Shown here: positions 11,623-55,258 of the stretch, in pieces
How the letters are laid out: each line of letters begins with the position of its first letter
Numbering within the stretch: the stretch's first letter is position 1
Assembly (NCBI RefSeq): GCF_026151205.1
Contig: NC_087080.1
Location: forward strand, 15,199,337 to 15,263,336
Reading direction: 5' to 3'
Source: Bolinopsis microptera
Taxonomy: Eukaryota > Ctenophora > Tentaculata > Lobata > Bolinopsidae
Length of the DNA: 64,000 bases
Translations under genes and position numbers: made by a program
The notes under the pieces: model-generated
The model's database searches: none
What the model saw: the letters and a program-made list of their open reading frames with translations, nothing else
What the model was told of the DNA's origin: nothing

Positions 11623-11865
11623 CTGTCGATATGTCATATTAAATCACGTTAAACTGATTAATAAGGGTTATTTTGACGGTTTCTTATGATCACTTTATTA
11701 AGTTATAAATAACAATATGTACTAACTATCCTATATCCCATATCCTATAATATATGTGTTTATGTTAAATAACTAAATGGCATACTTGAAATTTAGACAG
11801 AAAACTTATTTGTAAATTAAAGTTATTGTTACTTTGTTAAACCAATGCTTGTTTTTATTAGTCAC

Positions 11866-12332
11866 CTGGTTGTGATCCGTAGTAATCAGATGCTGTGTCG
11901 GAGGAATGGAACTGTATTTTTGTCACGTATCCGGTCCAGTACGTGCTCCAGTACGGAATAGGACACGTCGATTGAGAGATCAGTTTGTTGAACACCCCTA
12001 CCTCGTTACAGTGTATCACTAATCTAACACCTGCAGTTCTGGTTAGAGTGATCCGCCACACCTTGTCAGCAGTAGAGGGGGGTTTAACAGGGAAGTTAGT
12101 GAAGGTTGAGCTGCAGTAGGGGAGCCAGTATTGTGGAGTAAAGCCGAAGCGGAGGACGACTCCTCCTGAAAGCTGTCCCTCAGCTGAGTAGAAGAACACA
12201 TACACCTGATCGTTACTCCCCAGCACACTATTAGTTTTAATTTCTAAAGGTGTCGACTCAGAATCCCACTCTATTTCCACCCCACGTTCGACTGGTAACC
12301 AACCTGTTAATTGTATGTTTAACTCATGACTA
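11866..12332 (-). CDS. Extracellular-domain exon A (unknown family)
   Basis: A 467-bp minus-strand exon bounded by acceptor gttgctcag and donor CAG|GTGACT. It encodes about 155 residues beginning SSHELNIQLTGWLPVE, with EWDSESTPLEIKTNSVLGSN, VYVFFYSAEG, VWRITLTRT and VIHCNEV, ending SSDTASDYYGSQP. Beta-rich alternation and three cysteines suggest a secreted or extracellular domain. I do not recognise the family; a remote likeness to the Methyltransf_FA/FAMeT-type beta domain is possible but unverified. It enters in phase 2 and leaves in phase 1, joining the Sushi-like exon in frame. A near-identical paralogous exon lies at 13706-14181. A TTAA element is inserted 11 bp beyond its acceptor. Confidence 0.7.
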
Positions 12333-12347
12333 CTGAGCAACGATTAA

Positions 12348-13638: not shown

Positions 13639-13705
13639 TTAATGAATATCATGAATTTAAAGTTATTGTTACTTTGTTAAACCAATGCTTGTTGTTATTA
13701 GTCAC

Positions 13706-14181
13706 CTGGTTGTGGACCTTGTGGTATATAGTAATCAGATGCTGTGTCGGAGGAATGGAACTGTATCTTTGCTACGTCATCGCTCCAGTACGTGCTCCAG
13801 TACGGAGTAGGACACGTTGATTGAGAGAGCAGTTTGTTGAACACCTCTACCTCGTTACAGTGTATCACTACTCTGACACCTGTAGTTCTGGTTAGAGTGA
13901 TACGCCAAACCTTGTCAGCAGTAGAGGGGGGTTTAACAGGGAAGTTAGTGAAGGTTGAGCTGCAGTAATGGAGCCAGTATTGTGAAGTAGAGCCGAAGCG
14001 GAAGACGACTCCTCCTGAAAGCAGTCCCTCAGCTGAGTAGAAGAACACATACACCTGATCGTTACTCCCCAGCACACTATTAGTTTTAATTTCTAAAGGT
14101 GTCGACTCAGGATCCCACTCTATTTTCACCTCACGTTCGACTGGTAACCAACCTGTTAATTGTATGTTTAACTCATGACTA
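13706..14181 (-). CDS. Extracellular-domain exon B (paralogue of exon A)
   Basis: A 476-bp minus-strand exon with acceptor gttgctcag and donor CAG|GTGACT, highly similar to exon A over its whole length. Differences include EVKIEWDPES for GVEIEWDSES, SDDVAKIQF for TGYVTKIQF, and three extra residues before the C-terminal QP (DYYIPQGPQP). The reading frame is fully open, so it is under constraint or recently duplicated. It enters in phase 2 and leaves in phase 1, so it cannot splice to exon A in frame. That makes A and B candidates for mutually exclusive use, or B an orphan duplicate. No exon to its 5' side could be identified. Confidence 0.65.
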
Positions 14182-14189
14182 CTGAGCAA

Positions 14190-15159
14190 CGATTAATGAA
14201 TATCATGAATTTAAAGAAGAGGTGTTCTAGCAAAATTGTAAAGGAATTGTATAAATTTTGCCCATAGTTTATTCTCAGAATTTAAGGGCCCAACCATACT
14301 ATGACTGTTGTCACCATGACTGTTGTCACCATGACTGTTGTCACCATGACTGTTGTCACCATGACTGTTGTCATGGTGCGGTCAGATGTAATGACCAATG
14401 ACCATATGTACGTATAAGTGTGTTTAATGTTTATAGGGCGTGCCAAGGATACGTGAGAACTCCTCAGGCACCCGGCTTTTCAAAAGCCTTACCTAGCTGA
14501 TAATCCGTGCCTGACGTGACTGCGGGCAGTCTATTCAGTACTTGTGCCAACTGTCATGGATAACGTTACGTCACGATTACCTAATAAGGTCAATATTTTG
14601 CGTGATATGGTCATTTGCAGTGCAGAGTGCAAAGATAGTACATACTATAGTACAGACAGATCTGTCTGAAAAAATCGATCTACTGACAGAAGAAGCTTCC
14701 AAAGGATTTATGACGTTTTTAGGTTCAATTTTAAGTTTCATTCGGGTGGCCAACTTTTCCAAAATTGTCCACATGTCTTAAGGCCACTTTTTTACACTTT
14801 TGCCACTTTTTACCTCCTTTCTTGTTTGTCAAATATCTTCAGCTGTGAACATCGTAGAAGGATACGAATTAATAGAGGGTAATTATCATATCGACGAGAA
14901 AAACTTTTGTAAGACAAATGTTCTTGTCAGACAATTAGATAATTGGATAGTTACTAATTAGCAAGTAAGCAAGTAAAAATCATAAAAATGTTTATTGGCT
15001 CAGAATGATCGGAATTTCTTGAAACACTGGGAAAGGTAGGTAGTTTTTGAAAAAACTTTCGAAAATTTAAAATTTTTTTCCGCCAAAAGTTTTTTCGAAT
15101 AGAAGTTCTACTGAAAGCATCAAACCATGGTTTGGTGGCCGAACTGCATCCGACCGAAT
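14190..15159. other. No gene; short 15-bp repeat
   Basis: At 14300-14376 the unit accatgactgttgtc is repeated five times in tandem. The rest, including open frames at 14542-14781 and 14954-15169, shows no domain or splice context. Confidence 0.6.
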
Positions 15160-21769: not shown

Positions 21770-22557
21770 CAGGCTTGTCCGCCGCCGCCGGGTGATTTTG
21801 CCACGCCGAACGCCGCCGATACACCCCGGCGTACATCGGCGTACGGCGTGCATTTTCTGACTTCAAAATAATTTTGTCTTCATTTGAAGATTATCAGTGT
21901 TACTGATAGCGATTAGCGGCTAGGGGCGACACACACATGATACACACCTTTAGCTAACTTAACAATCTTGATTATCAGAAGAACTGAGCAGATACCTACT
22001 CATAAGTTTGACTGAAGAAGAAATTTTACAATTCGAACTTTTAAGATTTTGGGCCGATAGGCAAAAAACTTTCCCAGTACTCTCAAACATAGTAAGAATA
22101 GTGCATTGTATACCTGCCAGTAGTGCGAAAATTGAAAGAACCTGTTCGGCTGCAGGTTTAATTCTTTCTAGTCAGCGATCTAGGATGAATGTTAAAAATT
22201 TCAAATATACACTGTTTTGTTCTAAAAACTATGATTTTGTTTCCAACAAAAAATATTGAGAGATCCATTGATTTCAGCAATAATTTATTGTTTATGTATT
22301 TTACCTTATATAAAATAATTGTATCAATTTGTCTCAACTTTTATTTGATAGCAGATAATACCATAACAATATACCAACATCATTTGTTGAAGTTAAGTCT
22401 AAATTACCCAAATTAAGTACATGATCATATTCATATTTCATAGACCTCAATTTAGTTGGCCTTGATTTCACGGCTCACGCCGGCGTACGCCGCCGCCGCC
22501 GGTGTAATTTTAGTGAAACGCCGCCGCCGATCCATTTAGCCACGGCGGACAAGCCTG
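21770..22557 (+). mobile_element. hAT transposon, internally deleted copy
   Basis: Ends are CAGGCTTGTCCGCCG at the left and its exact reverse complement at the right. A perfect 8-bp duplication ctgtagaa flanks them (21762-21769 and 22558-22565), which is diagnostic for hAT transposition. GC-rich gccgccgcc words lie just inside both ends. Only the transposase C-terminus remains (22008-22256), so the 788-bp copy is a deletion derivative that would need a transposase made elsewhere. Confidence 0.95.
22008..22256 (+). pseudogene. hAT transposase dimerisation domain remnant
   Basis: Encodes about 80 residues of the hAT C-terminal dimerisation domain (hATC). It reads LRFWADRQKTFPVLSNIVRI, then IPASSAKIERTCSAAGLILS and SQRSRM. 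The motif order FW....FP.L....I..IPASSA..ER..S.AG.....R..M is the family hallmark. The catalytic RNase H-like region and BED zinc finger are missing. It lies between the TIRs of its own element and in the element's orientation. The ATG is internal to the original protein, so it is not a true start. Confidence 0.9.
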
Positions 22558-24221: not shown

Positions 24222-24361
24222 TGTTGTGAATTGTAATATTATGCAATATAATGATTATTAACCATTTCTATCCTTAGCCTAGGATTCAAGTCCAAGTTAT
24301 AACAAGTGTATCAATTCTCTGAAGAACTCACGAATTATAGATAGAATATCAAATCATAACA
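24222..24361 (+). repeat. 5' LTR (140 bp)
   Basis: Starts TGTTGTGAATTG and ends CATAACA; preceded by the target duplication agaag. It is followed at once by ATGGCGACGCGG, where TGGCGACG is the likely tRNA primer-binding start. Confidence 0.95.
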
Positions 24362-25448
24362 ATGGCGACGCGGATGTATGACCAGAAATTGACCACCACA
24401 ATAGGATCCAACATCAGGTTGTGGTTCACCCAATTCGAAGTGTTCGTTAAGCATCAACAAGCAATCGTAGAGCCAGTGATTGAAGTTGTACCGGAGAACC
24501 TGAACGCAGATGTAGAGGCAAGAACCGCCTGGACTACAGAGCGAGACAGGAGAAACGACCGGAATGTACAGCTACAGTGGACCCAGATGTTGATAGTATC
24601 AATGGACGCAGCAATGTTCAAAAAAGCGTATCACTTCGCAAAACCAGAGGATATAACCACAACGGAGTACAAAGTGATAAAACAGAAACTTTGTAATCAT
24701 TACTCACCAAAACCAACTAAATTCGCTCAAAGATACGCCTTCACCCGAATCTTTCAAGTGAAAGGAGAGCGTGTGGCAGAATACGTCGAAAGACTAACCG
24801 AAACTGCCATGGACTGTGAATTTGAGGTTGAGTTGGAATCGAGAATGCTGGACCAATTCATAGCTGGACTGAGTGATGAAAGCGTGAAAGCGAAACTCCT
24901 GAAGAAAACAGATTTAACATTAGCAACAGCGAGAGAGCATGTAGCAACTTTAGAGAAATCTGTGGAAGAAGCTCAATATAATATATATGTCGAAAAATAG
25001 TGTTACTGTCAGAAACAGTGGAACTTCTGGAACTGTGAATAAGGTTTCGGATAGGAAATCAAAGCATTTCAGAAAAGAAAGTAGTTTAAAACCAAGAGGA
25101 GAAATGTACTGTGAAAAGTGTACATCGCGCAGTCATAACACAAGGGACTGTAGAACAGTATGCAGGAAGTGCAAAGAGAAGTACCACATTGCTAGAAACT
25201 GCACGGGTACTAAGAAGAACTATAAGTACAGAAAAGGTGATAAATCTCACCATGTTGAAGAATCTTCCGAGACCGATGAGAATGACGAGAGCGACGTCGA
25301 GATAGCTTTTGTTTGTGTTGAGGAGAAATCAGTAGATATGTTTAGAGTGAGAGAAAGTGAAAACGAATTGATTGAAATTGACAAATTTGATTATTCGAAG
25401 TTATTACCCTCTGATGATTATTCTGAATTTGACACAGTTATTGAGTAT
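24362..25448 (+). CDS. gag: capsid and zinc-knuckle region (frameshifted)
   Basis: Frame 1 (24362-25000) encodes a retrotransposon Gag/capsid-like helical protein. Landmarks are WFTQFEVFVKHQQA, LCNHYSPKPTKFAQRYAF and FIAGLSDESVKAKLL. The second frame (from about 24987) continues with a basic stretch and two CCHC knuckles, CEKCTSRSHNTRDC and CRKCKEKYHIARNC, then an acidic tail. Knuckles of this C-x2-C-x4-H-x4-C form bind genomic RNA during particle assembly. The frame changes at a run of five A's near 24991, one base longer than the frame needs. The ORF then reaches TAT at 25446-25448, where a LINE end is inserted. The same frame resumes at 25862 in the protease region, so Gag and Pol were one ORF. 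Confidence 0.85.
24363..24380 (+). promoter_or_regulatory. Putative primer-binding site overlapping gag start
   Basis: TGGCGACGCGGATG follows the LTR by one base. Primer-binding sites begin TGG to pair with a tRNA 3' CCA. The gag ATG at 24362 overlaps it, so the element has essentially no untranslated leader unless the in-frame ATG at 24374 is used. Primer tRNA identity is not determined. Confidence 0.6.
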
Positions 25449-25853
25449 TATTATTATTATTATTATAAAACAGGATCTTACCGACAAAAATGATTCCTAA
25501 AAATACCTTAATGCGGTAAACTGTACCCTTGAAAAAGATTTTCCCAACATCTTTTGCATGCAGCTATATCTCTAATTTCGTTCAATTCATGCAAGTTGTC
25601 CATTTGCAAATTTCTACTACTTAAATCACTTCTTAAAACCGATAACAAGTTCATTCTAGGTCTCCCCAATCTACCAATGAATAAATTATCTGATTCAATA
25701 GCAAAAGAGAGAGCCGTTTGGGCTGGGGTGTTCTCCATACTCCTGAGAATGTGTCCAAACATCTTCCACCGCTGGTGTTCAATACGCTTGGATAACTTTT
25801 CAACTTTGCACCTTTCATACAATGCTTTGTTGCTTATCATACCTTTAGGCCAT
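25449..25853 (-). mobile_element. 5'-truncated LINE inserted in the LTR element
   Basis: Reverse-oriented LINE end flanked by a perfect 8-bp duplication ttgagtat (25441-25448 and 25854-25861). Its 3' tail is an ATA trinucleotide repeat (plus strand tattattat at 25449-25466). The minus frame 25508-25840 reads HQRWKMFGHILRSMENTPAQ and GRPRMNLLSVLRSDL, then CWENLF, the post-RT C-terminal region of a LINE related to but distinct from LINE B. Removing the 405-bp insert and one target copy leaves the host ORF in frame. Confidence 0.9.
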
Positions 25854-25861
25854 TTGAGTAT

Positions 25862-27913
25862 GATGATTCAAATTTAGATGCTTGTGATGACTCTTCTTCT
25901 ATAGAATTGATTGACAATCAAGAGATTGTTGAATTCAATTGTAACCATACTTCCTCAGAAAAACTGTTAGTGCCAGTGAAACTAAATGGACGAGATTTGA
26001 ACATGGAATTTGACTCCGGATCAAGCGTAAGTATTGTTAGTTGTAATGTGTTGTCTAAGGTAGGATTAGATTTACTTCCTCTTATACCTTCGGCAAAAAG
26101 ACTGAGAGCAGCGAACAATGAGAGACTACCAGTGATGGCGAAAGCACAAGTCGACGTAGAATTCAATGGAAAGATGATTCCAAAACTAGACTTATTCATT
26201 GTGGAAGGAAAATGTCCATCATTAATGGGACAATCTTGGATAACCAGATTTTTAGGAGATGACTGGTTGGAGACAACACTGAAGAGATCAAAGACTGCTA
26301 TTTCTTCTTGTTTTGATTTTTCCCCATGTGTAAGTAAGTCTGTGAATGTTAGTAATGTCCATGTTAGTCCTGTCGAAGTCCAGTCCTGTGTGTCCCTTTT
26401 ACCTCTTAGTCAGAGACCCTCAGAGAGGGGTGAACAAAGACCCTCAGAGAGGGGTGATCAAAGAACCATGGACAGGGGAACAGTCACACAGAAGAAAGAA
26501 GTTCAGAAACCTTTGAGAAGTTTAGACGAGCTGAAAATCAGTCCTATTTTTGAAGAAGGACTGGGGCTCATCAAAGGTGCAATGGCAAAACTAGTGCTGA
26601 AAGAAGATGCTCAACCAAAATCGTTGGGTGTGAGACCTTTGCCGTACGCGAAAAAGGATCAAGTAGGGAAAGAGCTGACAAGAATGTTGAACGAGGGAAC
26701 ACTAACCAAGATAGAGGGAGCAAGTCCTTGGGGAACACCTATAGTCCCCGTGTTCAAAGGAGAAAAGACTCGTTTATGTGGTTCGTATAACCTTACTTTG
26801 AATCCTGCTATGGCAGCACAGCAGTACCCACTGCCGTCCATAGAAGAGTGCCTGAACAAAGTAACGGGAGGACAGCAGTTTACAAAACTAGACGTTAGAG
26901 CTGCATACAATAACATCCCAATCAGGAAAGAAGACAGGATACTGACAACGATTAACACCCATTTAGGACAGTTATTGTGGAATCGTTTACCCTACGGTAT
27001 TTCTCCAGCAGCAGCCATTTTTCAAGAGACCATAGATCAAACATTGGCAGGGATACCAATGTGTTGTTGCAGAGTGGACGACATCCTCGTTTCCGGAAAG
27101 GACAGAGAGGAACACCTGAGAATACTCAACGAAGTTATTGGCCGATTGGAAAACCAAGGATACAGATGCAAGATGGAAAAGTCAGAATTCTTGAAAGACT
27201 CTGTGATTTACCTAGGACATGAGGTAAACAAAGACGGGATCAGACCCGTTAAGTCGAAAGTGGAAGATATGCTAAACATGAGAGCACCACGATCAGTAGA
27301 AGAATTAGTATCATTCTTGTCAGGAGTGAACTACTACAGGAGGTATCTACCAAACATGTCACAGATTGTTGCTCCATTAGATGAACTCAGAAAGAAAGGA
27401 GTAGAATGGAAGTGGACAAAGAGACAACAAGAAGCTTGGAAGAATTTAAAGAAACTACTTAGCTCGGATGTAGTGCTGACTTTGTACGATCCTAAGAAAC
27501 CGCTGAAACTTGACACCGACGCCTCTCCGACCGGATTGGGTGCAGTACTGTCACATACAATGCCTGATGGATCGGAACGTCCAATCGAATATATTTCAAG
27601 GACTTTAACTGCAGCGGAAAAGAACTACGCACAAATCGACCGTGAAGCAGAAGCGATTGTGTGGGCTGTTAAACGTTTCCATTTGTACCTGTATGGAAGG
27701 AAGTTTAAACTGATAACCGACAACCAGCCACTAGTACACATCTTCAGCAAAAACAAGCAACTGTCAGTCATGACCGCAGCAAGATTAACCAGATGGTCAT
27801 TATTTCTCATGGATTACGACTACGATATCTGCTACAGGTCAACCAAAGCCCATGGGAACGCAGACATGTTACCGAGAGTCGAGACTACCAAGACCACACA
27901 CCCCAGAAGATGA
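25862..27913 (+). CDS. pol: protease, reverse transcriptase, RNase H
   Basis: Polyprotein segment of the LTR element. Protease: MEFDSGSSVSIVS near residues 35-47 of the frame starting 25907, with the D-S-G catalytic triplet of retroviral-type aspartic proteases. RT: FTKLDVRAAYNNIPI, LPYGISPAAAIFQETID and the active-site line CCCRVDDILVSG. The usual YxDD is RVDD here, a substitution at the first position that could impair catalysis. Thumb and connection: YLGHEVNKDGIRP and FLSGVNYYRRYLP. RNase H: LDTDASPTGLGAVL, YAQIDREAEAIVW and ITDNQPLV supply the D-E-D acids. The frame breaks near 27895 at a run of four C's, and the integrase segment follows one frame over. Confidence 0.92.
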   Translation, partial: DDSNLDACDDSSSIELIDNQEIVEFNCNHTSSEKLLVPVKLNGRDLNMEFDSGSSVSIVSCNVLSKVGLDLLPLIPSAKRLRAANNERLPVMAKAQVDVEFNGKMIPKLDLFIVEGKCPSLMGQSWITRFLGDDWLETTLKRSKTAISSCFDFSPCVSKSVNVSNVHVSPVEVQSCVSLLPLSQRPSERGEQRPSERGDQRTMDRGTVTQKKEVQKPLRSLDELKISPIFEEGLGLIKGAMAKLVLKEDAQPKSLGVRPLPYAKKDQVGKELTRMLNEGTLTKIEGASPWGTPIVPVFKGEKTRLCGSYNLTLNPAMAAQQYPLPSIEECLNKVTGGQQFTKLDVRAAYNNIPIRKEDRILTTINTHLGQLLWNRLPYGISPAAAIFQETIDQTLAGIPMCCCRVDDILVSGKDREEHLRILNEVIGRLENQGYRCKMEKSEFLKDSVIYLGHEVNKDGIRPVKSKVEDMLNMRAPRSVEELVSFLSGVNYYRRYLPNMSQIVAPLDELRKKGVEWKWTKRQQEAWKNLKKLLSSDVVLTLYDPKKPLKLDTDASPTGLGAVLSHTMPDGSERPIEYISRTLTAAEKNYAQIDREAEAIVWAVKRFHLYLYGRKFKLITDNQPLVHIFSKNKQLSVMTAARLTRWSLFLMDYDYDICYRSTKAHGNADMLPRVETTKTTHPRR

Positions 27914-28689
27914 AAAGGAAACAGAAAACGATTGGGTACAGAGTGTGGATATAGAAAATACAGGATTAACGGCTAAAAACATCGAATCACATACCAGGAA
28001 GGACCCTGTCTTATCGAAAGTTCTACACTACGTGAAGAATGGATGGTCAGATAGAGAAACAAATTTCACAGATGAAATGACCGCTTATTGGAATCGGAAA
28101 AAATGACATTTCAATAGAAAACGGATGTTTGACATGGGGTTGCAGAGTTATCATTCCAGTTAAGTTAAGGACTACGGTATTGGAGATGTTACACGCAACA
28201 CACCTAGGTATCAGCAGGATGAAAACATTAGCACGATCTTACGTATATTGGCCGTTAATAAACTCAGAGATCGAGCAAATAGCTAACACGTGCACAACAT
28301 GTGGGAAACATGGGAAGAGTTTACCAAGTTTGATTGAACACCCATGGACCAGACCATCAATGCCTTGGCAAAGAGTCCACATTGATTACGCTGGACCATT
28401 TCTCAACAGCATGTGGTTATTAGTTTATGACGCTCATTCACGTTGGTAAAGATGAACAATAACACCACATCATCAGCAACGATCAGAGCTTTGAGAACCA
28501 TTTTCAGTAGATTCGGACTACCGTTTGTTATAGTGAGTGACAACGGAACAAACTTTACTTCACAGGAATTCGAAGATTTCTTGCAGAGGAACAACATACA
28601 CCACTTAAAGACAGGAACGTATCACCCAAAAAGTAATGGATGCTGTGAGAGATTTGTAGGAACATTCAAAGACGCGATGAAAAAGATGT
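27896..28689 (+). CDS. pol: integrase (zinc and DDE core), split by frame changes
   Basis: Integrase of the LTR element, which inserts the cDNA into the genome. Linker frame 27896-28106 (NDWVQSVDIENTGLTA). Zinc-binding HHCC motif in 28129-28449: HATHLGISRMKTL, then CTTCGKHGKSLP. Catalytic acids: D in VHIDYAGPF, D in VSDNGTNFTSQEF and E in NGCCERFVG, giving the D,D-35-E triad with typical spacing. Frame shifts occur near 28101 (run of six A's), 28446 (run of G's) and at the insertion site near 28685 (run of A's). Each neighbouring frame continues the domain with no residues lost. Confidence 0.9.
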
Positions 28690-30258: not shown

Positions 30259-31376
30259 AGAAGCCATGTGGTCTTGAAGAAGGCTAGGTAGTAAAGAGGG
30301 TAGATTGAGAGCCTGGAAAGACCACTTTACCAAGCTACTTGGACAACCTCCAGTAGTTCCAAACGAAGAAGTGGACATACCAGTCGTACATCCACCACAA
30401 AACATCAGTGTGGATAAGTTCACCAAGAAGGAAATGGAGGAGGCTACGAAATCGATCAAAGAAGGTAAAGCATTTGGAAAGGATGGAGTTGCCCCTGAAG
30501 TGCTGAAGAGGGTAGATGTTGATGATTTGATCCTCGACTTCTGCAATAAAGCACTGGTTGATGGTGATGTTCCTGACCAATGGAAGCACCTAAACATCGT
30601 GCCTGTTCCAAAGAAAGGGAATTTGACCAAAGTAGATAACTACAAAGGTATTGCACTGACATCTTTAGTGAGTAAGACTCTCAATAAAATGATGCTGAAC
30701 AGGATCAAACCTGCCATGGAGGACATCTTAAGGATCAATCAGAACGGATTTAGAGAGAGTAGGTCAACAACTAGTCATATTCTTGGCCTAAGAAGGGTAT
30801 TCGAGGGAGCTCGGGATAAAGATCTGACCGCGGTAATGCTCTTCATTGATTTCAAGAAGGCATTCGACAGCGTACACCAGATGAAGCTTGCATGGAAGTC
30901 GGATATGCGTATCTCAAGATACGACTGTTCCTGGCTACAGTTGAGTCCATCCTACTGTATGGCTCTGAAACATGGACTGTTAGCCAGACCCTCGCAAAAC
31001 GTATTGATGGATGTTATAGGAGAATGCTGAGGATGGCGCTTAACATAGACTGGAAAGAGCGGCAGACTAACGCCAAGGTATATGGACACCTCAATCTCAT
31101 CAGAGCATCTGATAAGATAGCTGAACAGAGGATGAGACTGACAGGTCATCTAGCCAGACATGAAGAACTTCTTAGTCATCAACTTCTCTTCTGGGAACCC
31201 CTTCAAGGACATAGTCGAAGGGGAAGACCACACCTCACATATATTGACATCCTTCGGAAGGACACAGGGCTTGATTAACAAACTCATGCTGGATAGACAG
31301 ATTTGGAAAAAAACTATCTCTCATGTTCGGACGTTGAAGCCGCCCTAAGTCGTAAGTCGCTAGTAATTATTATAAT
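30259..31376 (+). pseudogene. LINE copy B, 3' part (RT with internal deletion)
   Basis: Right half of the LINE split by the LTR element. Frame 30305-31030 begins AWKDHFTKLLGQPP. It has RT block 1 (GKAFGKDGVAPEVLK), NIVPVPKKGN, NYKGIALTSLVSKTL, RINQNGFRESRSTT and motif A (FIDFKKAFDSVH). It then jumps directly near 30880 to the post-RT region (LKIRLFLATVESILLYGSET), so the catalytic DD motif and thumb are deleted. From 30892 a different frame continues RMLRMALNIDW to LRKDTGLD, matching copy A at 5311. A 14-bp loss near 31275 relative to copy A shifts the frame. The copy is dead. Confidence 0.88.
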
Positions 31377-33402: not shown

Positions 33403-35818
<2,416 letters not shown>

Positions 35819-37175
35819 GAGAGCTGAGAAAGTGAGAGGGTCACAGGTGACGGATCTAAGTGTTTTGCTTTGTAACAAGTCGTACAGGTTATCCTGATAT
35901 CTTTACTGTGTAATTTCACCCTTCTGCTACGCTTGACCTGTACTCAATTTTACTTGTTATAATTGTGATATAACCACTCACTATGAATGCCATTGTGCTG
36001 TGTTACCAATATTAAACCAATAGTTGGTGACAAGTGCTATAAGATACGTAAAATACTGCTGGTTCAATGGTTCAGTCAACTAGTCAACCTCTAATATCCT
36101 AAATCTTCAGTCTTTAAGCACTATGGCATGTTTTATAGTTGTAGCTCTAACTTCCGAGTATTAATCGTGACTATAACTTATAATCATATGACATCACAAC
36201 TTTTTATAAATAATAAGAAAGATAACAAAATGGTTTACTCAAAGCTAATGTAATGCTTGTAATTCTAGTGCTAGTTCAGCTTATCCCGATTTCATTAGTT
36301 TTGAGTCATATGTGGTTAAATTGGGTTAGATGTTGCAACTCCCATAAGTTAATAAACTATTACATATTATAGACAAATAGTCGTATATAAGCTCTAAACC
36401 GCGGTTGAAGAGCAGCTTTGGTTTTTGTGTCTTTGATTCCTCCCCTGACGTCGGAGTCTGTGTTGCGAATAATATTTCAGTTTGAAGCTATTTGTTCGTG
36501 ATTTCCCGTTTGTATGGTGATTTGTCCCTTAGCTTTGCATACTGTAAGCAAACTCTTATCAGCACAAGCTTTATTAAGACTCTTTTAATATGTTAAAGTT
36601 ACAGGGCGTTTCAAGTTTCCAAGCAGTATCTGACACATACAAGAAGATAATGTCGCGTTGTGTCAGTATAGGGTTGAATTTCACACACAATATCTTATTA
36701 ACCTTTACTACATTCTAGATATTTTGTTCGAGTTTACGGTTTCATAAACACCTTCAATACCGCATTTAAAATGACGTTCATTATTTGTAATTGAAGCTGC
36801 ACGTGTCGTCGTAGTTTAAACTGCTGTCTAAATTATGGTTTTACAGTTTGACTCATCTCGACTACTCACGTTTCAAATGGGGACTGGGATGGCAATGTTG
36901 AATTACGTTTTCAGCTCGGTTTGATCGGATAACTTTAGACGTTTCCTAGCAAAATGTTAACGAGTTAAATCTCAGACATGACATTTCCTGGACGAGTTTA
37001 TAATAAGTTATACTTATCATACTTCATTATAGTTATCATGGTTATGGTACGTTGAAGTTTGAGGTTTGTAAGCCTCACTATACAAGAGTACAGACTAATT
37101 ATCCCATCTTTGATCAGGAAACATTTGAATTTGGCGGATCTCTCGTTCTCCGTGCACCTGTCACACGACAACGTT
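35819..37175. other. No gene recognised
   Basis: AT-rich unique-looking sequence lying just upstream of the promoter-like cluster; no domain-bearing frame. Confidence 0.5.
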
Positions 37176-42125: not shown

Positions 42126-43965
42126 CACACACACACACATACACACACACACACACACTGACTCACTGACTCACTGACTCACTGACTCACACTCACTGAC
42201 TCACACTCACTGACTCACTGACTCACACTCACTGACTCACACTCACTGACTCACTGACTCACTGACTCACTGACTCACTGACTCACTGACTCACTGACTC
42301 ACTGACTCACTGACTCACACTCACTGACTCACTGACTCACTGACTCACTGACTCACTGACTCACTGACTCACTGACTCACTGACTCACTGACTCACTGAC
42401 TCACTGACTCACTGACTCACACTCACTGACTCACACTCACTGACTCACACTCACTGACTCACACTCACTGACTCACACTCACTGACTCACACTCACTGAC
42501 TCACACTCACGGACTCACACTCACTGACTCACACTCACTGACTCACACTCACTGACTCACTGACTCACTGACTCACACTCACTGACTCACACTCACTGAC
42601 TCACACTCACTGACTCACTGACTCACTAACTCACTGACTCACTGACTCACACTCACTGACTCACACTCACTGACTCACACTCACTGACTCACACTCACTG
42701 ACTCACACTCACTGACTCACACTCACTGACTCACACTCACTGACTCACACTCACTGACTCACACTCACTGACTCACACTCACACTCACACTCACACTCAC
42801 TGACTCACTGACTCACACTCACTGACTCACACTCACTGACTCACACTCACTGACTCACACTCACTGACTCACACTCACTGACTCACTGACTCACTGACTC
42901 ACTGACTCACTGACTCACTGACTCACTGACTCACTGACTCACTGACTCACTGACTCACTGACTCACTGACTCACTGACTCACTGACTCACTGACTCACTG
43001 ACTCACTGACTCACTGACTCACTGACTCACTGACTCACTGACTCACACTCACTGACTCACACTCACACGTCTTCACAGTCTCACAGTCACACTCACTGAC
43101 TCACACTCACTGACTCACACTCACTGACTCACACTCACTGACTCACTGACTCACTGACTCACTGACTCACTAACTCACTGACTCACTGACTCACTGACTC
43201 ACTGACTCACTGACTCACTGACTCACTGACTCACTGACTCACTGACTCACTGACTCACTGACTCACTGACTCACTGACTCACTGACTCACTGACTCACTG
43301 ACTCACTGACTCACTGACTCACACTCACTGACTCACACTCACTGACTCACACTCACTGACTCACACTCACTGACTTACACTCACACTCACTGACTCACTG
43401 ACTCACTGACTCACTGACTCACTGACTCACTGACTCACTGACTCACTGACTCACTGACTCACTGACTCACTGACTCACTGACTCACTGACTCACTGACTC
43501 ACTGACTCACTGACTCACTGACTCACTGACTCACTGACTCACTGACTCACTGACTCACTGACTCACTGACTCACTGACTCACACTCACTGACTCACACTC
43601 ACTGACTCACACTCACTGACTCACACTCACTGACTCACACTCACACTCACTGACTCACTGACTCACTGACTCACTGACTCACTGACTCACTGACTCACTG
43701 ACTCACTGACTCACTGACTCACTGACTCACTGACTCACTGACTCACTGACTCACTGACTCACTGACTCACTGACTCACAGACTCACTGACTCACTGACTC
43801 ACTGACTCACTGACTCACTGACTCACTGACTCACTGGCTCACTGGCTCACTGACTCACTGACTCACTGACTCACTGACTCACTGACTCACTGACTCACAG
43901 ACTCACTGACTCACTGACTCACTGACTCACTGACTCACTGACTCACACTCACTGACTCACAGCGT
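42126..43965. repeat. ACTGACTC satellite (8-bp and 14-bp units)
   Basis: A CA-dinucleotide start (42126-42157) leads into about 1.8 kb of the octamer ctgactca mixed with a 14-bp variant actgactcacactc. Each unit contains TGACTCA, the AP-1/bZIP consensus. Rare variants (ggctca, cacagact, a cttcacagtctcacagtc interruption at 43070-43090) show blockwise amplification. Confidence 0.97.
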
Positions 43966-46847: not shown

Positions 46848-47405
46848 CGATGACTGTGACTGTGACTGTGACTGTGACTGTGACTGCGACTGTGACTGTG
46901 ACTGTGACTGTGACTGTGACTGTGACTGTGACTGTGACTGTGACTGTGACTTGACTGTGACTGTGACTGTGACTGTGACTGTGATTGTGACTGTGATTGT
47001 GACTGTGACTGTGACTGTGACTGTGACTGTGACTGTGACTGTGACTGTGACTGTGACTGTGACTGTGACTGTGACTGTGACTGTGACTGTGACTGTGACT
47101 GTGACTGTGACTGTGACTGTGACTGTGACTGTGACTGTGACTGTGACTGTGACTGTGACTGTGACTGTGACTGTGACTGTGACTGTGACTGTGACTGTGA
47201 CTGTGACTGTGACTGTGACTGTGACTGTGACTGTGACTGTGACTGTGACTGTGACTGTGACTGTGACTGTGACTGTGACTGTGACTGTGACTGTGACTGT
47301 GACTGTGACTGTGACTGTGACTGTGACTGTGACTGTGACTGTGACTGTGACTGTGACTGTGACTGTGACTGTGACTGTGACTGTGACTGTGACTGTGACT
47401 GTGAC
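46848..47405. repeat. TGTGAC hexamer microsatellite
   Basis: About 555 bp of (tgtgac)n with a few substitutions and one indel near 46950. All frames stay open (AspCys, ThrVal, SerHis and SerGln repeats), which explains the roughly 200-codon frames on both strands. None is a gene. Confidence 0.97.
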
Positions 47406-48944
47406 GATGACCAGTTTGCAATGTTAGATTTCAAAACGGCAGGTCCAATGACATCATTGATTTCATCGTCAGCAGTCTTTCAGTTTTCTAAGATGTTTTG
47501 TTAGTAAACATTGTTTTAATCAACACATGATGGTCTCAGTCATCACAACGTTTCATCTTAAACAATTCTAACTTGTGTTTCATCGTCTTAATTGATCCGG
47601 TATTTTGCATTCCAATTAATTAGGCGAAATGTCTCATCTTACTACGTTAATTGATTAGCTCATTACATGGAATCTTACGTTACGACCCACTTAGTGCATT
47701 ATCTTAATCAGATTCGGGATCAAATTAGTTGTCACCTCTGTTGTACAAGAGGGTGGAATTCTCAATTCTCACGCCAATATCTGATAGTCCATTCTGTTAA
47801 GTTGCCGGGATTTTGTAGCTTTTATTCCGATTGTTGAAAGGAAAAATTTCCTAAAATTTCTTTTATTCTAGACTCAGGATATTTAATATAAATGCTCACA
47901 TGTACAGTAAGAAAATTCCAAATCTCAGTATTTTTACGATTTGTTAGTAAATAATATCCTCGTGCTGCTTGCTTGATCTCGTTCTATATTCTTTATCCAC
48001 TATTCTGCTCTTGCTTGATGCTAGTCATTTTTACCTATTGCTGCACTGTCAACTCAGAGACAATTACGTGTTATTCGATGCAATTGAGCTTCAAGAGCAG
48101 TTGCAATGGCATAACCGTTTCGCATAACGAAAGCCTTAGTGACCATCATTTAACTCAATCAACTTTCACCTGAATCTCTAGTTCAAAGGATAGTTAAAAG
48201 CAAAGTAAAAATGGCCAAAAACTTGCTGATGTGAACGCTCGCTTAGAGCAGCTGCAAGACTTCAGGTTGGATAACCGCTTCTCAGCTGCCCACATACAAC
48301 ATAAGAGCATAAGCATTAAGTAATTTGAAGCAACGACAGCATTCTTTTATTTCAACCGCGATGATTTAACAACGGGCGTTTTTAATTATGATATTTTCCG
48401 TCTAATTAGTAATATTTAGTAATAATTAGTAATTACTTTTGGTGTGGAATAAAGTAGCACATTGTTTTAATCTGATCATGTAAGTACATAATTTTTTCTT
48501 TATAACAGTTGATTACTCTTGAGTACTCTTCTTTGTCTATTGGCCATTATGTTTATCGCGTATCTGTATTCCGTTTATAAGGTAATCATTGCTTCTAAGT
48601 TTTAATTCGTGTCTCAGCTTTGATCTGGAACTATTTTTAAACAAAGTTATTGTTTGATTTCTACATGGACATTTGTTTCTACAAATAATTTGTATTTTGT
48701 TGTGGTCTAAAAATGCTCGCTTTGAATCATGAAAAATGAATTAGTCTCACTTAAGTGCTTCAAACAAGTCCTAGTTCTATGTTCTATGTATATATACTAC
48801 GATTGGTATATATAGTACCTAATGCATGTCCAGGACATATACTAGGACATAATGTCATAGTAAGTAGTCCTCTAGAGTCTAGGTCTGTTCTACTACTGTG
48901 CAGTGTGCCGCCGTGTCTTCTGGTGTCTTCTGGTGTCTTTTTAC
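47406..48944. other. No gene recognised
   Basis: AT-rich; short frames without support. Confidence 0.5.
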
Positions 48945-49235
48945 TAAGTTACTAGGCTTTTGCTTAGTTACCAGACTTTTGCTTAGTTACTAGGCTTTTG
49001 CTTAGTTACAAGGCTTTTGTTTAGTTATAAGGCTTTTGCTTAGTTACAAGGCTTTTGCTTAGTTACTAGGCATTTGCTTAGTTAGAAGACTTTTGCTTAG
49101 TTACTAGGCTTTTGCTTAGTTACAAGGCTTTTGTTTAGTTATAAGGCTTTTGCTTAGTTACAAGGCTTTTGCTTAGTTACTAGGCATTTGCTTAGTTATA
49201 AGGCTTTTGCTTAGTTACAAGGCTTTTGTTTGGCT
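48945..49235. repeat. 19-bp minisatellite
   Basis: About fifteen tandem copies of a unit close to cttttgcttagttactagg. Variants acaagg, ataagg and catttg recur in the same order, so blocks of several units were duplicated together. Confidence 0.95.
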
Positions 49236-50196
49236 GCAACAATGTGGCTTTATAAATCTTAATGCCTCCTGCTACAGTTTACACCGGTAATCTTTGGTTG
49301 ACTGTTGACTGCTGACTGTTGACTGTTGTAATGTAAGATTGTACTATTGTACACTCTACACTTTACAATTCTATTCAAACAGGCACTACTACAAATGTAA
49401 GCCCTAATCAAATTTGTGCTAATTAGGTGTCAGGATTTTATTGTAATGACCCATCAACAGAGGGGTAGCCCATTTCCTATTGTCTGCCCCACTGTGACCA
49501 CTGTCATGTGGCTGGTCCCAAGTCTCACACCCAACCAATTTAACCTTTCAACGGCTGATCTTGTGGTTTTCATCACATTTTAATTTTACTACTTTAGGAG
49601 TTGAGCACTTTCTATGATGTTCGTGTGTCAAGAGTTGAATGTCTCTTTAAAACATTTCTTTTTACCTTTTAACCACACTTCTTATAACCACACACGATTT
49701 GTATATTATTTTTCAATTGTTACTTGTACTACTAATAACTACCACTTTACATAATTTCGTCTACTATTCTGCTGCTTGCCTTCTAGGAGATAATTACATC
49801 TCCTCGACCTCTCTAGAGTCAAGAGTACCTCCATTCACATTACTCACCACAATAATCTGCAGATTGTATTTTCTAGCACAGTTGCTGTAGTGTTGCAGTG
49901 TTGTATTGGGTTTGCCTTGTGTAAATAGCGGCCCACTGCCTCCCACATGGTGGTGTTCTTTTAACTTCCAGTGGTACTTCCAATGTTGCACCACCAGCTT
50001 TTTTTTACGTGACCGAATTAGTGTTATTTATTCCGATAATATTCAAATATTTCGTCAGTATAATAAACGATAAAAGATTTAATTATTTGAAGCCGTTCTG
50101 CTTCTAAATTCATCCTATGTCCTCGAGATGAAACATCCCTATAATCTGTATGTTGAATAATACATGTAACCCGCTCTATCTAATCTTGTATCCCAG
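49236..50196. other. Upstream region of the receptor gene
   Basis: No coding exon recognised. The stretch atcttgtatcccag ending at 50196 is acceptor-like, placing a 5' UTR intron immediately before the first coding exon. Confidence 0.4.
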
Positions 50197-50202
50197 CTGG
50201 CA

Positions 50203-50393
50203 ATGCTCAACCCCTGTCAATCTAGACAGCCCTCCTCCATCCTCCTCGTCCTCGTCCTCCTTCTAGACATCAGTATCTCACTCCCTGTCTCCTCCTGCCC
50301 GGTCTCCTGTATATGTTTCAACACCTCTGTGAACTGTACCTCACTGGAACTCTCTGATGTGCCTAGCGGAGTGTCCCTTAACACAACCATACT
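50203..50393 (+). CDS. Receptor exon 1: signal peptide and LRRNT
   Basis: ATG at 50203, hydrophobic core residues 13-21, then the C-x3-C-x-C-x6-C LRRNT cysteines. Donor ACT|GTAAGA; ends phase 2. The preceding tatcccag suggests that an untranslated exon lies upstream. Confidence 0.85.
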
Positions 50394-53300
50394 GTAAGAT
50401 AAAACTGTTATCAAATTGCGAAATTCTCGTAGAATATAAATTATGTAGTATGATATTTTACCATATTATAAAATATTTACAAAGATGACTTACACTTATA
50501 ATATGACTATACATTTATAATGGGCTTAGGTTAGAGCTAATGAGGTTTTTAGATCTTTACTAAGTGCCTTTGCTTTTTAGTTTTTATCTATCCTTTGTGA
50601 ATTGCAGCTATTTTTTGCTCTACTGTTTTACGTCAATACGAGCATAATATCATGATCAAGACCTTAAGCACTTATATATAATATTATATATTATATTATA
50701 TATAATATTGCTCAATAGTCATTGTTTAATACGAGTATTATAAAGTTATAAAGTTAAATACAAGTATTATAACTTCCTGACCCATTAAAATCTTGCAGGG
50801 ACCTCTCTCATAACAGATTAAGAGACCAAAGTTGGAGCAAGCTGATTGCGCTAGCCTCTGATTTAAACAACTTAAAACAGCTGTAAGTTTTTTATTTTAT
50901 TTTTAAAAAATTTTTATTTTTAAAGCTGTAAGTCACATTAATAACAATGTTTCTTCAAATTACGAGTAATTAATGGTGAAGTTACACTTAGTTTTCTGGT
51001 TTTTAAGTCGGAACTAGACTGCGATGTATATCAAATTATTGTAGCTCAGTAGAATTGGGGACTATCATATTATTGCTGTTAAATCGTTATATAATCGAAC
51101 TGATGTCAGATTGTTGAATATATTTGGTTACCGTTATACTTCAAAATTGAATGAAGACCATAAATGGATAAATCATTCCCGCTATTCAACTAGTGACAAA
51201 TTGTCTTTCAGAATTTTGACAGATAACATTTTAACTACTATACCAGACAAGGGAATTACCAACGTCAAGCTGTAAGTACCGCTAAATACTCAATATACGG
51301 GATTCTAGAATATATATTTAATAAAATACGAAGTTAGAGTAAAATAAGTTAAATGTAATAACATCAAAGATACCAATGAAACTGATCTTTCCGTTAAAAT
51401 GTCCCTGATTTAAATTCAAAGTTCAAAATTACTCACTAAGTCACTATACTAAATAAGCTGACTTATAGATATAGATATCGTTAACGAATCCTCAATCGTT
51501 CAGAGATCTATTGGATAACCCAATCCACTGCGACTGTAAGCTACTGGAGCTGCCTCCCTCCCAATTCCTGAACTACGCCAGCACCAGCATCACATGCTCC
51601 TCCACCTCCAACCCTGACCTTCACAATGTCAGATTAGATGAGCTTACTCCTCAGCAGTTAGGATGTGGTCAGTGAACATCATAATTAAAAACTTTCCTTC
51701 CTTTCCAGAACCTTCCAGACGTTTTAAGATCACGCAAACTTCATGCTTAGTTCTTACTACTCAGTACTCATTAACCTCTTTACGTTCCTCTTTATTACCA
51801 AGACAACTTAACATCTAACATTCCAACAGATGAGATGAAGCTGTCAGTCCCAGCAGAGATAACACTCTACAAGATAGGATACGAGCAGGTTATACCCTGT
51901 CACAAGTCCAAACCAGGCACTGTATCCTGGTATCGAAGAGGGGTTCTCAGGTACCAGACTGGAGAGGAGGACTGCTCTCTTGTGCTCAGACACATGACCT
52001 CCAGAGACGAGGGCTTGTATAGGGTCATCTACCAAGCTCCATTACAGAACAGAACAGTCTACATCAATGTTTTGTTGAAAAAAGGTGAGTTCACCGAGCT
52101 GTTAGCTAAATTGTATGAACATTAAGTACAAATTAATATCAGTGTTTGCATTTTCTTCTACTTCGCTATCTTGATTAATTACTCTTTCACCTTAAATTTC
52201 ACTATCAGAAAGTAGTGGACCGAACATAGATGACAGCAACTCGCTGGTGGAGGTACAAAGAAAAGGAACAGCTAAATTGACCTGCAAGTCATTTGGAGCT
52301 CCACCACCAACTGTCGAGTGGTTCTATCGTAACAACAGCGTCAAAAACACCGAACGTAAGACATTTCATATTGATTTCACTTTAATTTTACGAAAAGTGG
52401 AACTTGATAGTTTTAATTACCGGTTATGATAGTTAACTTTGAAATTTTGTCTGAATGCGTAGCGATTTCTAAAAGCTGACAACTTGTTCATAATGGCTCA
52501 ATTGAAACAACCAACAAAGTCCGTAAACTACATTTCTCACCTCCAACTTATATTAACAGTTAACCAGCACGTGTTTAAAACACGTAAAACTAAAACACTG
52601 TTTCACAAGTCTCCAACTTCAGACAGCAACATTGTGATAGTAGACGCAGCGACACTAATAGTAACTGATGTCACGAGTGAGGAAGTGTTTACGTGTCGGG
52701 CTACGAACGTGCTGGGGACGACAGAAGCAAAGTTTGTTGTTAAAACCATTGACAGGTACAACTACAAGCCCTTATAGTTGGTGATTTTACAGTAGCCTTC
52801 ATCTACTTCATCTACTTCATCTACTTTATCTACTTCATCTACTCTAGATCTCTTTAGTTTTCAGACATATTTTTTGAAACAATTTGCAAGTAATATTAGG
52901 TACTCTCTTAATTCATGAAGTATGTTGCAATTTCCCGAGCTTTGTCTCCGACAATTTTCTGTTAAATTCGCCAAAACTCTGCCGACAAGATTTAAGGTAT
53001 TTAAAAAAGCTAAACTGTTGTCTCCTAGGATACGGGGTGCAGTGTTTGAGTGGTTGGCTCCTCTCTCAGTCGCCTTGCTCATAATAACGGGTGCTGGCAG
53101 TGTCGGCTACATATTCTACAGCAAGCAGAAGTTAGCCAGACTCAAACAGCGCTGTTCCAGTCCAGGTGTCAGTGACACTGGTGGTACTATATTCGGTGAG
53201 TAAATTTAACACCCGCGATCATTAAAACAGAGAGAACGAAGTTGTCCGTCACAGCTGATCCCACGAGTTCTCCCCAAAATTATAACTACAGACACCCAAA

Positions 53301-55258
53301 CTTAACATATGATATACTCCTGGTACAATTATCTTCATCACAGTATCTCCTTACACGCTAATTTCCCCAGAGAACTGTGACGCCCTACCCTCTACTATTA
53401 CACATGGTGAAGGCTACAAGATGCTCGCTATCTCCACCTCTTCGCCCCCAAACCAACTCATCTGCCCCATTACCAGGGAATGCATGGTAAGTTAAATAGT
53501 TTAATAAATAGTCTGAATATTTGAAATATAGATCCACGTTTCGGCGGTTATGTGTCCTCCGTCCGTGTCCTGGAAAAGACTTTGCACATGCGTGTGCACA
53601 ACAACTTACAACATACGTGGGCACAACAACATGCGTGTGAGTCTTGACCATACCCTACGTTGGGACAACTTCGTGGGTCTTCACTTGACCATACCTTCGT
53701 GGGTCTTGCTAAACTATATTGTCAAGTTTATGATATAACCATTTTGCTACAAGTTGATAACCCGTTACCCGACCTTCATTACGGTGAGAGCATTAAAGTT
53801 AAACTGAGGGTTAATATAACTTGTCATTACCGCCTCGTGACTAATAGTCTGTATATCAGAGTGACCCACTTATGTTCAAATTACTAGTCCTACTTTCTAA
53901 TATTTAACCTTAATTATGTGTTCCACAATCCACATTTGTTTTGACACGTGAAATTGTTCGTCGCTGCTTGAAACTGGTTAGCCAATTACTGTCGCGTGTC
54001 AGGCCCATTAAAATTATAATATTTGCTGTATGAATCTTGATGCCCTCTCAAGTCTCAAGATTCGACGGCTTTGATCATTCGATTTTAAAGGGTATAGTTT
54101 GACTTTAAATAAACTCCATCATGCCCGGCATGCTCCTACTACTGCAGGGATATGATTAAAAGCTCACCAACATAGTCAAATTTACGGATCGTTAAGTTGG
54201 AAAAGCTTTCACAGACTAATAAAACCAACTCTCCGTAGAAAAACCCAGTGGTGGCGAGTGATGGGTTCTCATACGAGGAGAAAGCAATTCTGGCCTGGTT
54301 TAAGAGAAACGGAACAAGCCCCATGACAAACGGGGAGATCAGTAAACGCCTCATACAGGTAAAATATCTGATAAGCTAATTTATTTATCTATACGTTTTA
54401 TCTTAAAAGTTCAACTTGAACTATATTATGTATGTTTTTGAAACCTAAAAAGGGGTTACAAATTCGGCAAACTCCACAGTGCATTTCCTCATGTGCAGTT
54501 TTAAAATCACGTTTCATTATCGTCTGAAATAAAGAAGAATAAACCAAATCCTTCAGAATCACAACCTACGGACCCTGATACGAGACATTATGGACAAAAA
54601 ATCCATGTCAGATAGTTTCCTGAACCTAGATCACCTTTCCCCGCCCTCCAGCGCCAGAGGGAACACAGCAAACCACCACTTTAGAAGCAATGTGGTGACC
54701 AGTCCTTCCCTCTCACGATTATCTAGGGTGGCTCCAGAAGAAACCATCATTGAGACTAACAATATCCAGCCTTCTCGGTCTTCAGACCAACAAAACAGAG
54801 TACAGGCTTCACCGCCAACTGATAACAATATTGAGACCGCTTCAAGATCTTCTGCTATCAGCAATTCAGGACTATCTGTTTCTGGTGAGTCAGTGCCAAG
54901 TGGCAGTAGAACAGAGCAAACAGGAAGCGAGGGCCGCAGTGGTGGCGGGATTAACCCGGCAGCTGAGCTGTCTAACGTTTCAACCAGGGAACACAGATTC
55001 AGATCTAACAGTTCCATCAACTCTCGAAACAGTATCTCTACTGATCAGGGTATTGGGGTTTCAGTTACAGAGTCTCTTGGCGAACCGTTGAGGGAATCAA
55101 GTGGTAGCTCCGCTTTTGACATCGAAATCTCGGAGGATACCGGAGTAATTTCAAGCGCCTCCAATGAATACGACACGGTCGTGAGTATAGAAACTAATGG
55201 TCAAATTCAGACCGAAATCTTATCTGCAGACGACATCTTATCTGCGGATGACATCTAA
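50203..55258 (+). CDS. LRR-Ig-TM-U-box receptor-type E3 ligase (11 exons)
   Basis: Joined exons give 2,139 nt, 712 residues. Signal peptide about 1-31 (SSILLVLVLLLDIS); LRRNT C32-C45 (CPVSCIC); two LRRs 64-111 (DLSHNRL); LRRCT to 166 (NPIHCDCKL); Ig1 167-251; Ig2 252-344 (LTCKSFG, VEWFY, VFTCRATN); TM about 353-375 (WLAPLSVALLIITGAGSVGY); juxtamembrane basic stop; U-box about 427-505 (CPITRECM, PVVASDGFSYEEKAI, SPMTN, NHNLRTLI); then a 200-residue Ser/Thr/Asn-rich tail ending in a repeated ILSADD. The U-box keeps the hydrophobic, Trp and Pro positions that contact E2 enzymes, so it is predicted to be an active ubiquitin ligase at the inner face of the plasma membrane. The ectodomain order resembles Trk receptors. 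Ligand unknown. Every intron is GT-AG and every phase matches. The 5' start rests on the signal peptide. Confidence 0.88.
50799..50882 (+). CDS. Receptor exon 2: LRR 1
   Basis: 84 bp between tcttgcag and CT|GTAAGT, phase 2 to 2. Encodes DLSHNRLRDQSWSKLIAL and onward, an LxLSxNxL leucine-rich repeat in its own exon, as is common for LRR receptors. Confidence 0.88.
51212..51271 (+). CDS. Receptor exon 3: LRR 2
   Basis: 60 bp between ctttcag and CT|GTAAGT, phase 2 to 2. Encodes ILTDNILTTIPDKGITNVKL, a short leucine-rich repeat of 20 residues. Confidence 0.85.
51504..51667 (+). CDS. Receptor exon 4: LRRCT cap
   Basis: Acceptor cgttcag, donor TGTG|GTCAGT. Encodes DLLDNPIHCDCKLLELP, then ITCSSTS and LGCG, the CxC...C...C pattern of C-terminal LRR caps. 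Phase 2 to 1. Confidence 0.9.
51830..52084 (+). CDS. Receptor exon 5: Ig domain 1
   Basis: 255 bp, phase 1 to 1. VIPCHKSKPGTVSWYRRG holds the first Ig Cys and core Trp. The usual second Cys in D-x-G-x-Y-x-C is Val (SRDEGLYRVIY), so the canonical disulphide is missing. A Cys in GEEDCSLVL may substitute. Confidence 0.88.
52209..52355 (+). CDS. Receptor exon 6: Ig domain 2, first half
   Basis: 147 bp, acceptor ctatcag, donor GAAC|GTAAGA, phase 1 to 1. Encodes GTAKLTCKSFGAPPPTVEWF, with the I-set Cys, the G-x-P hinge and the core Trp. Confidence 0.88.
52623..52755 (+). CDS. Receptor exon 7: Ig domain 2, second half
   Basis: 133 bp, acceptor caacttcag, donor ACAG|GTACAA. Encodes ATLIVTDVTSEEVFTCRATN with the second Ig Cys, then NVLGTTEAKFVV. 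Phase 1 to 2. The following intron holds a short cttcatcta repeat (about 52798-52845). Confidence 0.85.
53029..53195 (+). CDS. Receptor exon 8: transmembrane segment
   Basis: 167 bp, acceptor tctcctag, donor TTCG|GTGAGT, phase 2 to 1. Encodes the single membrane helix WLAPLSVALLIITGAGSVGY followed by KQKLARLKQR, a positive stop-transfer patch that places the C-terminus in the cytoplasm. Confidence 0.88.
53371..53486 (+). CDS. Receptor exon 9: juxtamembrane and U-box start
   Basis: 116 bp, acceptor tttccccag, donor ATG|GTAAGT, phase 1 to 0. Ends SSPPNQLICPITRECM, the first loop of a U-box (CPITxE/D). Confidence 0.88.
54239..54358 (+). CDS. Receptor exon 10: U-box core
   Basis: 120 bp, phase 0 to 0, acceptor ctccgtag and donor CAG|GTAAAA. 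Encodes KNPVVASDGFSYEEKAILAW and onward to SPMTNGEISKRLIQ, with the D-G-x-x-Y-E, Trp and S-P-M-T-N signature. Confidence 0.9.
54557..55258 (+). CDS. Receptor exon 11: U-box end and Ser-rich tail
   Basis: Acceptor tccttcag, phase 0. NHNLRTLIRDIMDKK completes the U-box C-terminal helix. A disordered-looking tail rich in Ser, Asn, Thr and acidic residues follows, with a tandem ILSADD repeat before TAA at 55256-55258. Confidence 0.88.
   Translation, partial: NHNLRTLIRDIMDKKSMSDSFLNLDHLSPPSSARGNTANHHFRSNVVTSPSLSRLSRVAPEETIIETNNIQPSRSSDQQNRVQASPPTDNNIETASRSSAISNSGLSVSGESVPSGSRTEQTGSEGRSGGGINPAAELSNVSTREHRFRSNSSINSRNSISTDQGIGVSVTESLGEPLRESSGSSAFDIEISEDTGVISSASNEYDTVVSIETNGQIQTEILSADDILSADDI

Follow-up and report, generated by a model that had tools for sequence, protein, structure and literature searches.

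Can a single animal membrane protein both recognize something outside the cell and attach ubiquitin inside it? The question is raised by a gene at 50203–55258 on the forward strand of a 64,000-nucleotide stretch of DNA from the ctenophore Bolinopsis microptera (NC_087080.1, positions 15,199,337 to 15,263,336), the whole of which we call the window. A sequence-only reading had proposed that eleven exons with GT-AG borders and matching phases encode a leucine-rich repeat (LRR) and immunoglobulin (Ig) ectodomain, a transmembrane (TM) helix and a cytoplasmic U-box in one protein. We favour the reading that the product is a type I single-pass membrane protein that would be both a receptor and an E3 ubiquitin ligase, acting much like ZNRF3/RNF43, and put its probability at roughly 60%. 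If this is true, protein tagging may be under direct control of the cell surface, and the gene would be a testable single case for what ctenophores use instead of missing pathways, for example canonical Toll-like receptors (TLRs).

Gene model and the Mnemiopsis counterpart

All exon borders came out as earlier noted: each of the ten introns runs from GT to AG, phase is consistent across all junctions, and the joined frame is free of internal stops, giving 2139 coding bases for 712 amino acids with a stop codon that ends at 55258. The G+C content is 48% in the exons versus 33% in the introns. The predicted layout reads signal peptide, LRR N-cap, two LRRs, LRR C-cap, a degenerate Ig domain, an I-set Ig domain, TM helix, U-box and tail (Table 1), and the proposal that these domains stand in one membrane protein was borne out by Pfam, hydropathy and the cysteine pattern. 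In profile searches of the joined protein, the U-box (PF04564, 40.5 bits, aa 427–494, cut-off 21.4) and the I-set Ig domain (52.0 bits, aa 257–340) scored above their cut-offs, LRRNT fell just short (25.5 bits, aa 32–57, cut-off 25.8), LRR_4 was also below its cut-off at 16.8 bits, and LRRCT gave no match. The 14 Pfam families that came up at E values up to 10 included no WD40, SAM, PA, RING or kinase domain.

By far the closest protein in the protein database search was P0001, a predicted 656-aa protein of Mnemiopsis leidyi that shows 68% identity across 87% of the query with an E value of 6e-268. The two proteins are collinear end to end, from signal peptide to tail, and 67–68% identical overall. 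Identity amounts to 198 of 313 aligned residues (63%) in the ectodomain, 30/33 (91%) in the TM region, 39 of 47 aligned (83%) in the linker, 69/71 (97%) in the U-box region, which scores 41.8 bits in the Mnemiopsis protein, and 95 of 167 aligned in the tail of 216 residues. Residues 425–491, over the U-box, are identical in an unbroken row of 67, indicating that the U-box is the most constrained part of the protein. P0001 itself has no match in NCBIfam, a bacterial and archaeal library.

Because P0001 is conserved collinearly, including the U-box, two genes are very unlikely to have been fused here by chance. The same conservation bears on a prediction artefact in which two neighbouring genes, one for an LRR-Ig membrane protein (exons 1–8) and one for a soluble U-box protein (exons 9–11), were wrongly joined. 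Read-through of intron 8 would meet a stop after two codons and might yield a truncated receptor, a point in favour of such an arrangement; skipping of exon 8 would shift the frame. However, the same join is present in the Mnemiopsis protein, the two species agree at 28 of 32 aligned positions flanking the exon 8/9 junction, and intron 8 is just 175 bp long with matching phases, so that we regard two separate genes as highly improbable and strongly infer from the sequence a single transcript for all 11 exons.

Ectodomain, membrane helix and rarity of the combination

The ectodomain is unevenly recognizable. Its LRR C-cap, without a Pfam match in the whole protein or in exon 4 alone, is recognized from a four-cysteine pattern only (C121-x-C123...C143...C166, kept in Mnemiopsis), in agreement with a Mnemiopsis genome paper on immune receptors, the covered sections of which report that the LRR C-cap Pfam domain went undetected in three ctenophores (PMC11797021). 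A genome-wide search for the LRRCT family likewise gave no match, and was uninformative since the controls were silent too. In the Mnemiopsis protein, LRRNT reaches just 17.9 bits and the precomputed Pfam list holds no LRR family; the putative LRR part thus owes its identity to weak scores plus conserved cysteines. Ig domain 1, searched as exon 5 alone, matched Ig_3 with an E value of 4e-4 (21.2 bits, under the cut-off of 30), and found no PDB match better than E 0.5. Both species have Cys190 and Cys215 in this domain and both lack the usual second cysteine at the DxGxYxC place, an arrangement that suggests an unusual disulfide. All 12 cysteines of the mature ectodomain are kept in Mnemiopsis. 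Among 19-residue stretches of the protein, the signal peptide ranks first in hydrophobicity and a stretch covering the TM helix ranks next; because basic residues come after the helix, we predict that the LRR-Ig part lies outside and the U-box inside. Within the helix lies a conserved GAGSVG run, a small-xxx-small type of sequence that could promote dimer formation.

The architecture had been called Trk-like. Trk receptors consist of LRR caps, few LRRs, two Ig domains, one TM helix and a tyrosine kinase. The order from the caps to the helix is shared, with the qualification that here the C-cap is visible by its cysteines, the LRRs score below cut-off and Ig domain 1 is weak, whereas the kinase has a U-box in its place. 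The likeness holds for this order; by sequence, among the matches listed, the solved structures nearest to the LRR part are lamprey variable lymphocyte receptors (VLRs) and AMIGO1, those nearest overall are VLRs, AMIGO1, LRIG and general Ig proteins, and Trk is absent from the best 60 of 163, of 115 and of 146 PDB matches, the last obtained with a two-sequence profile. Descent from the Trk/LRR-Ig kinase receptors, with the kinase exchanged for a U-box in the ctenophore line, would explain the common domain order, but given these matches we consider it very unlikely; from the best candidates scored in the genome, one other Ig match to P0001 emerged, an Ig-TM frame (L020:1315–2055 on C12) that has neither a kinase nor a U-box. 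The LRIG/AMIGO/LINGO proteins, which also combine LRR caps with Ig domains, are among the better ectodomain sequence matches, but the LRIG3-like protein P0012 differs in that it lacks a U-box and has three Ig domains and a far larger number of LRRs. An LRR-FGFR of Aplysia unites LRRs and Ig domains in one invertebrate receptor too, but with a tyrosine kinase inside, according to the sections covered (PMC4200351).

How rare is the combination of LRRs, Ig domains, a TM helix and a U-box? Protein searches spanning 5.8 billion sequences gave 11, 12 and 4 hits at thresholds of 1e-3, 1e-2 and 1e-3, from 7996, 7996 and 355 candidates scored, the first two sets being those that share most words. Of the 15 different proteins found, the Mnemiopsis protein alone has both Ig and U-box domains. 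Thirteen have a U-box without Ig in the Pfam lists shown (five lists are partial, but the sequences are those of WD40 proteins), and the remaining one is P0012. Mnemiopsis and Bolinopsis are placed in one family, Bolinopsidae, in the part of the genome paper covered (PMC11797021); relatives outside this family were looked for in the protein database only, where absence is not evidence of absence.

Within the Bolinopsis genome, searched as 232 contigs totalling 264.65 Mb, 9 of the 12 matches to P0001 are this gene, and the other three are the Ig-TM frame and two U-box loci (L021, which overlaps L003, and L022, which overlaps L005). The stretches read around the other genome loci contain no LRR-Ig-U-box join. 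No second locus of this kind was found in a search that was not sensitive enough to pick up exons 2 and 3 of the gene itself. A search of the genome for the U-box family gave at least 8 matches, a lower bound: none of 14 control genomes yielded a match, and this gene, with its U-box divided by introns, was itself absent from the list. By sequence reading, the 8 matches comprise two UBE4-like U-boxes, two exons of a CHIP-like locus, two WDSUB1-like U-boxes (L003 and L005), one RING-like match (L008) and one with a stop (L007). Two WDSUB1-like U-box loci other than this gene stand at L009:5593–5751 (G000 C9) and L010:8085–8250 (G000 C7). Each seems to have an intron near the DPV/NPV motif, like this gene, at slightly different codons, and the 9.9-kb stretches around them showed no WD40 match at E 0.01.

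The U-box and a proposed transmembrane receptor E3

The U-box appears intact and of the WDSUB1 type. Plant U-boxes of known structure, among them 7c96, 7xed and 1t1h, can be aligned with it, and in the alignment with plant PUB U-boxes it keeps Ile434 (of CPI) and Pro467 (of SPMTN), which we take to be the E2 contacts of loop 1 and loop 2, respectively. The likeness to WDSUB1, noted in the sequence-only reading, was confirmed in that the best named relative is a WDSUB1 protein (P0003, 41 of 68 aligned residues identical); an ankyrin-kinase-U-box protein without a name (P0002) scores equally, with 35/63 identical. WDSUB1 differs in carrying WD40 and SAM domains, as described in the covered part of an animal U-box survey (PMC3087547), whereas our protein has neither and instead an LRR-Ig ectodomain and a TM helix. 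In a tree of 20 U-boxes, from which P0012 was omitted as it has none, the receptor pair stands apart from the CHIP- and UBE4-like U-boxes of the same genome with support of 98/91. Eleven of the 17 inner branches are open, and its position among the WDSUB1, ankyrin and VWA types is undecided; the WDSUB1 rows are not all held together, and loci L003 and L005 have long branches. Two other alignments were left unused for the fold, one that set WD40 repeats against the ectodomain and one that scattered the short exons.

We propose that the U-box would load an E2 and ubiquitinate the receptor itself, membrane partners bound in cis, or both, the partners being picked by the ectodomain, which may either choose a partner or be gated by it. 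Extracellular binding would gather receptor molecules into clusters in which the U-box meets its substrate, and the outcome would be removal of the partner or the receptor from the surface, or the start of a ubiquitin-dependent signal. Some 50 residues separate the U-box from the membrane. Lysines 377, 379 and 384, which lie in the juxtamembrane stretch and are kept in Mnemiopsis, are possible sites of self-modification, and YKML at aa 416, likewise kept and presumably a YxxPhi-type motif with a sorting role, would fit surface removal.

That a receptor could itself be an E3 is not new in kind. ZNRF3 and RNF43 are transmembrane E3s that do so with a RING domain, their activity being reportedly inhibited by extracellular R-spondin (PMC3905715, in the part covered). 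The likeness extends to a single-pass surface protein with a signal peptide, one TM helix and an E3 domain inside, all predicted from sequence in our case, and would include contact with a ligand or partner outside; the difference is that ZNRF3/RNF43 combine PA and RING domains, as reported in the sections covered (PMC7291719, PMC10127277), whereas the present protein combines LRR-Ig-Ig with a U-box. It is this pairing that is undescribed in the literature found. The earlier statement that no animal family of this architecture is known to have been described also stands, in that no transmembrane U-box receptor occurs in the literature listed, two of the lists giving the best 20 of 60 and the best 15 of 31 entries, a scope that subscription papers mostly fall outside. 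The survey of Marin (2010) counts seven main U-box genes in animals and, besides these, ACT1, with one additional gene in Nematostella and five in Monosiga. Its text uses neither "transmembrane" nor "immunoglobulin"; in the sections covered here no U-box protein is described as a receptor, and the groups named are placozoans, cnidarians, sponges and bilaterians, with no ctenophore (PMC3087547). A ubiquitin survey that includes Mnemiopsis in its methods lacks "transmembrane" in its main text (PMC4327156), and the Mnemiopsis genome paper lacks "U-box" (PMC11797021).

Several points weigh against a receptor E3. Just two species, both of a single ctenophore family, are known to have the architecture. 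The LRR stretch has little length, its scores lie below cut-off and are weaker still in Mnemiopsis, and Ig domain 1 is degenerate. The ectodomain of ZNRF3 forms ligand-enhanced dimers and that of RNF43 none, and the RNF43 data, in the part of the paper covered, argue against ectodomain dimerization as central to ligase activity (PMC3905715), so that clustering is the weakest part of our proposal. Finally, Arg436 stands at a site that is hydrophobic in plant U-boxes, which would suit a U-box that serves as a scaffold without ligase activity (a pseudo-E3). We judge such a pseudo-E3 improbable: Ile434 and Pro467 are kept, 67 consecutive residues are identical in two species, and aligned WDSUB1 proteins have a histidine at position 436 (protein P0005 has an arginine), and in cells WDSUB1 reportedly raises the ubiquitination of USH2A, a membrane protein (PMC10238197, in the part covered).

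The product might also be a signalling receptor rather than a ligase that clears the surface, with ligand clustering leading to ubiquitin chains of a non-degradative kind, to which downstream factors would be recruited. For IL-17 receptors the adaptor is ACT1, which they recruit, and here a comparable step would be built in. In the covered part of the animal survey, ACT1 itself counts as a ubiquitin ligase and may contain a U-box, though a very divergent one (PMC3087547). Signalling would fit the Ser/Thr-rich tail of 216 residues after the U-box with its kept block at aa 634–659, and the covered sections of the Mnemiopsis genome paper, which report no canonical TLR (PMC11797021). However, no docking motif or partner was identified, and sequence does not separate chain types; we think this alternative unlikely, though worth keeping in mind. 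The conserved tail block, which lies within 54557–55258 and reads NSRxSxSTDQGIGxSVTESLxEPLRE, is a candidate phospho- or docking motif.

Returning to the receptor E3, we offer a wider reading tentatively, as possible rather than probable: lobate ctenophores may have a ligand-to-ubiquitin pathway in one protein, with no kinase or adaptor, in which LRR-Ig recognition would directly switch ubiquitination, and which may have arisen when a WDSUB1-type U-box was placed behind an LRR-Ig membrane receptor. The two parts form one joint reading and share this grade.

Exon coordinates and the surrounding window

Table 1 Exons of the gene and other features of the 64-kb window.
Feature	Position	Strand	Content or evidence
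Pyrimidine-rich run	50173..50202		CAG at 50196, six bases ahead of the start codon
Exon 1	50203..50393	+	Start codon, hydrophobic signal peptide (aa ~13-30), LRR N-cap aa 31-60 (Cys 32/36/38/45; LRRNT just under cut-off)
Exon 2	50799..50882	+	First LRR; LRR_4 under cut-off
Exon 3	51212..51271	+	Second LRR; LRR_4 under cut-off
Exon 4	51504..51667	+	LRR C-cap, by cysteine pattern 121/123/143/166
Exon 5	51830..52084	+	Degenerate Ig domain 1
Exon 6	52209..52355	+	Ig domain 2, first half
Exon 7	52623..52755	+	Ig domain 2, second half
Exon 8	53029..53195	+	TM helix (~53054-53116, aa 354-374), basic juxtamembrane stretch
Exon 9	53371..53486	+	Linker with conserved YKML, U-box start (from ~53445)
Exon 10	54239..54358	+	U-box middle, DGFSYE...SPMTN; U-box 22.2 bits for this exon alone
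Exon 11	54557..55258	+	U-box end (to ~54607), Ser/Thr-rich tail, stop codon
AATAAA signals	55576, 55687		Downstream of the gene
Paired open frames	11861..12343, 13701..14192	-	Very similar starts (SLLSSHELNIQLTGWLPVER...), ~1.8 kb apart
hAT transposase	21972..22256	+	Dimerisation domain
Retroelement pieces	24341..28446	+	Gag-like, aspartyl-protease-like, reverse transcriptase/RNase H and integrase zinc-finger frames
Reverse-transcriptase fragment	30278..31027	+	RVT_1
Simple array	35603..35823		GA x110
Simple array	42156..43960		CACTGACT x239
Simple array	46851..47405		TGACTG x93
Simple array	48939..49228		19-bp unit x15, upstream of the gene

The pyrimidine-rich stretch ahead of the start codon, together with its CAG, is a possible 5'UTR intron or trans-splice acceptor; spliced leaders occur in ctenophores. 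An origin of the gene as a chimera derived from transposable elements was set aside: the retroelement pieces occupy other parts of the window, and Mnemiopsis has a conserved counterpart of the gene. Neither a tRNA nor an Rfam match was found within the window. The paired open frames on the reverse strand, neither of which has a Pfam match, look like a local duplication. Simple arrays also occur close to the gene, including short ones within its introns.

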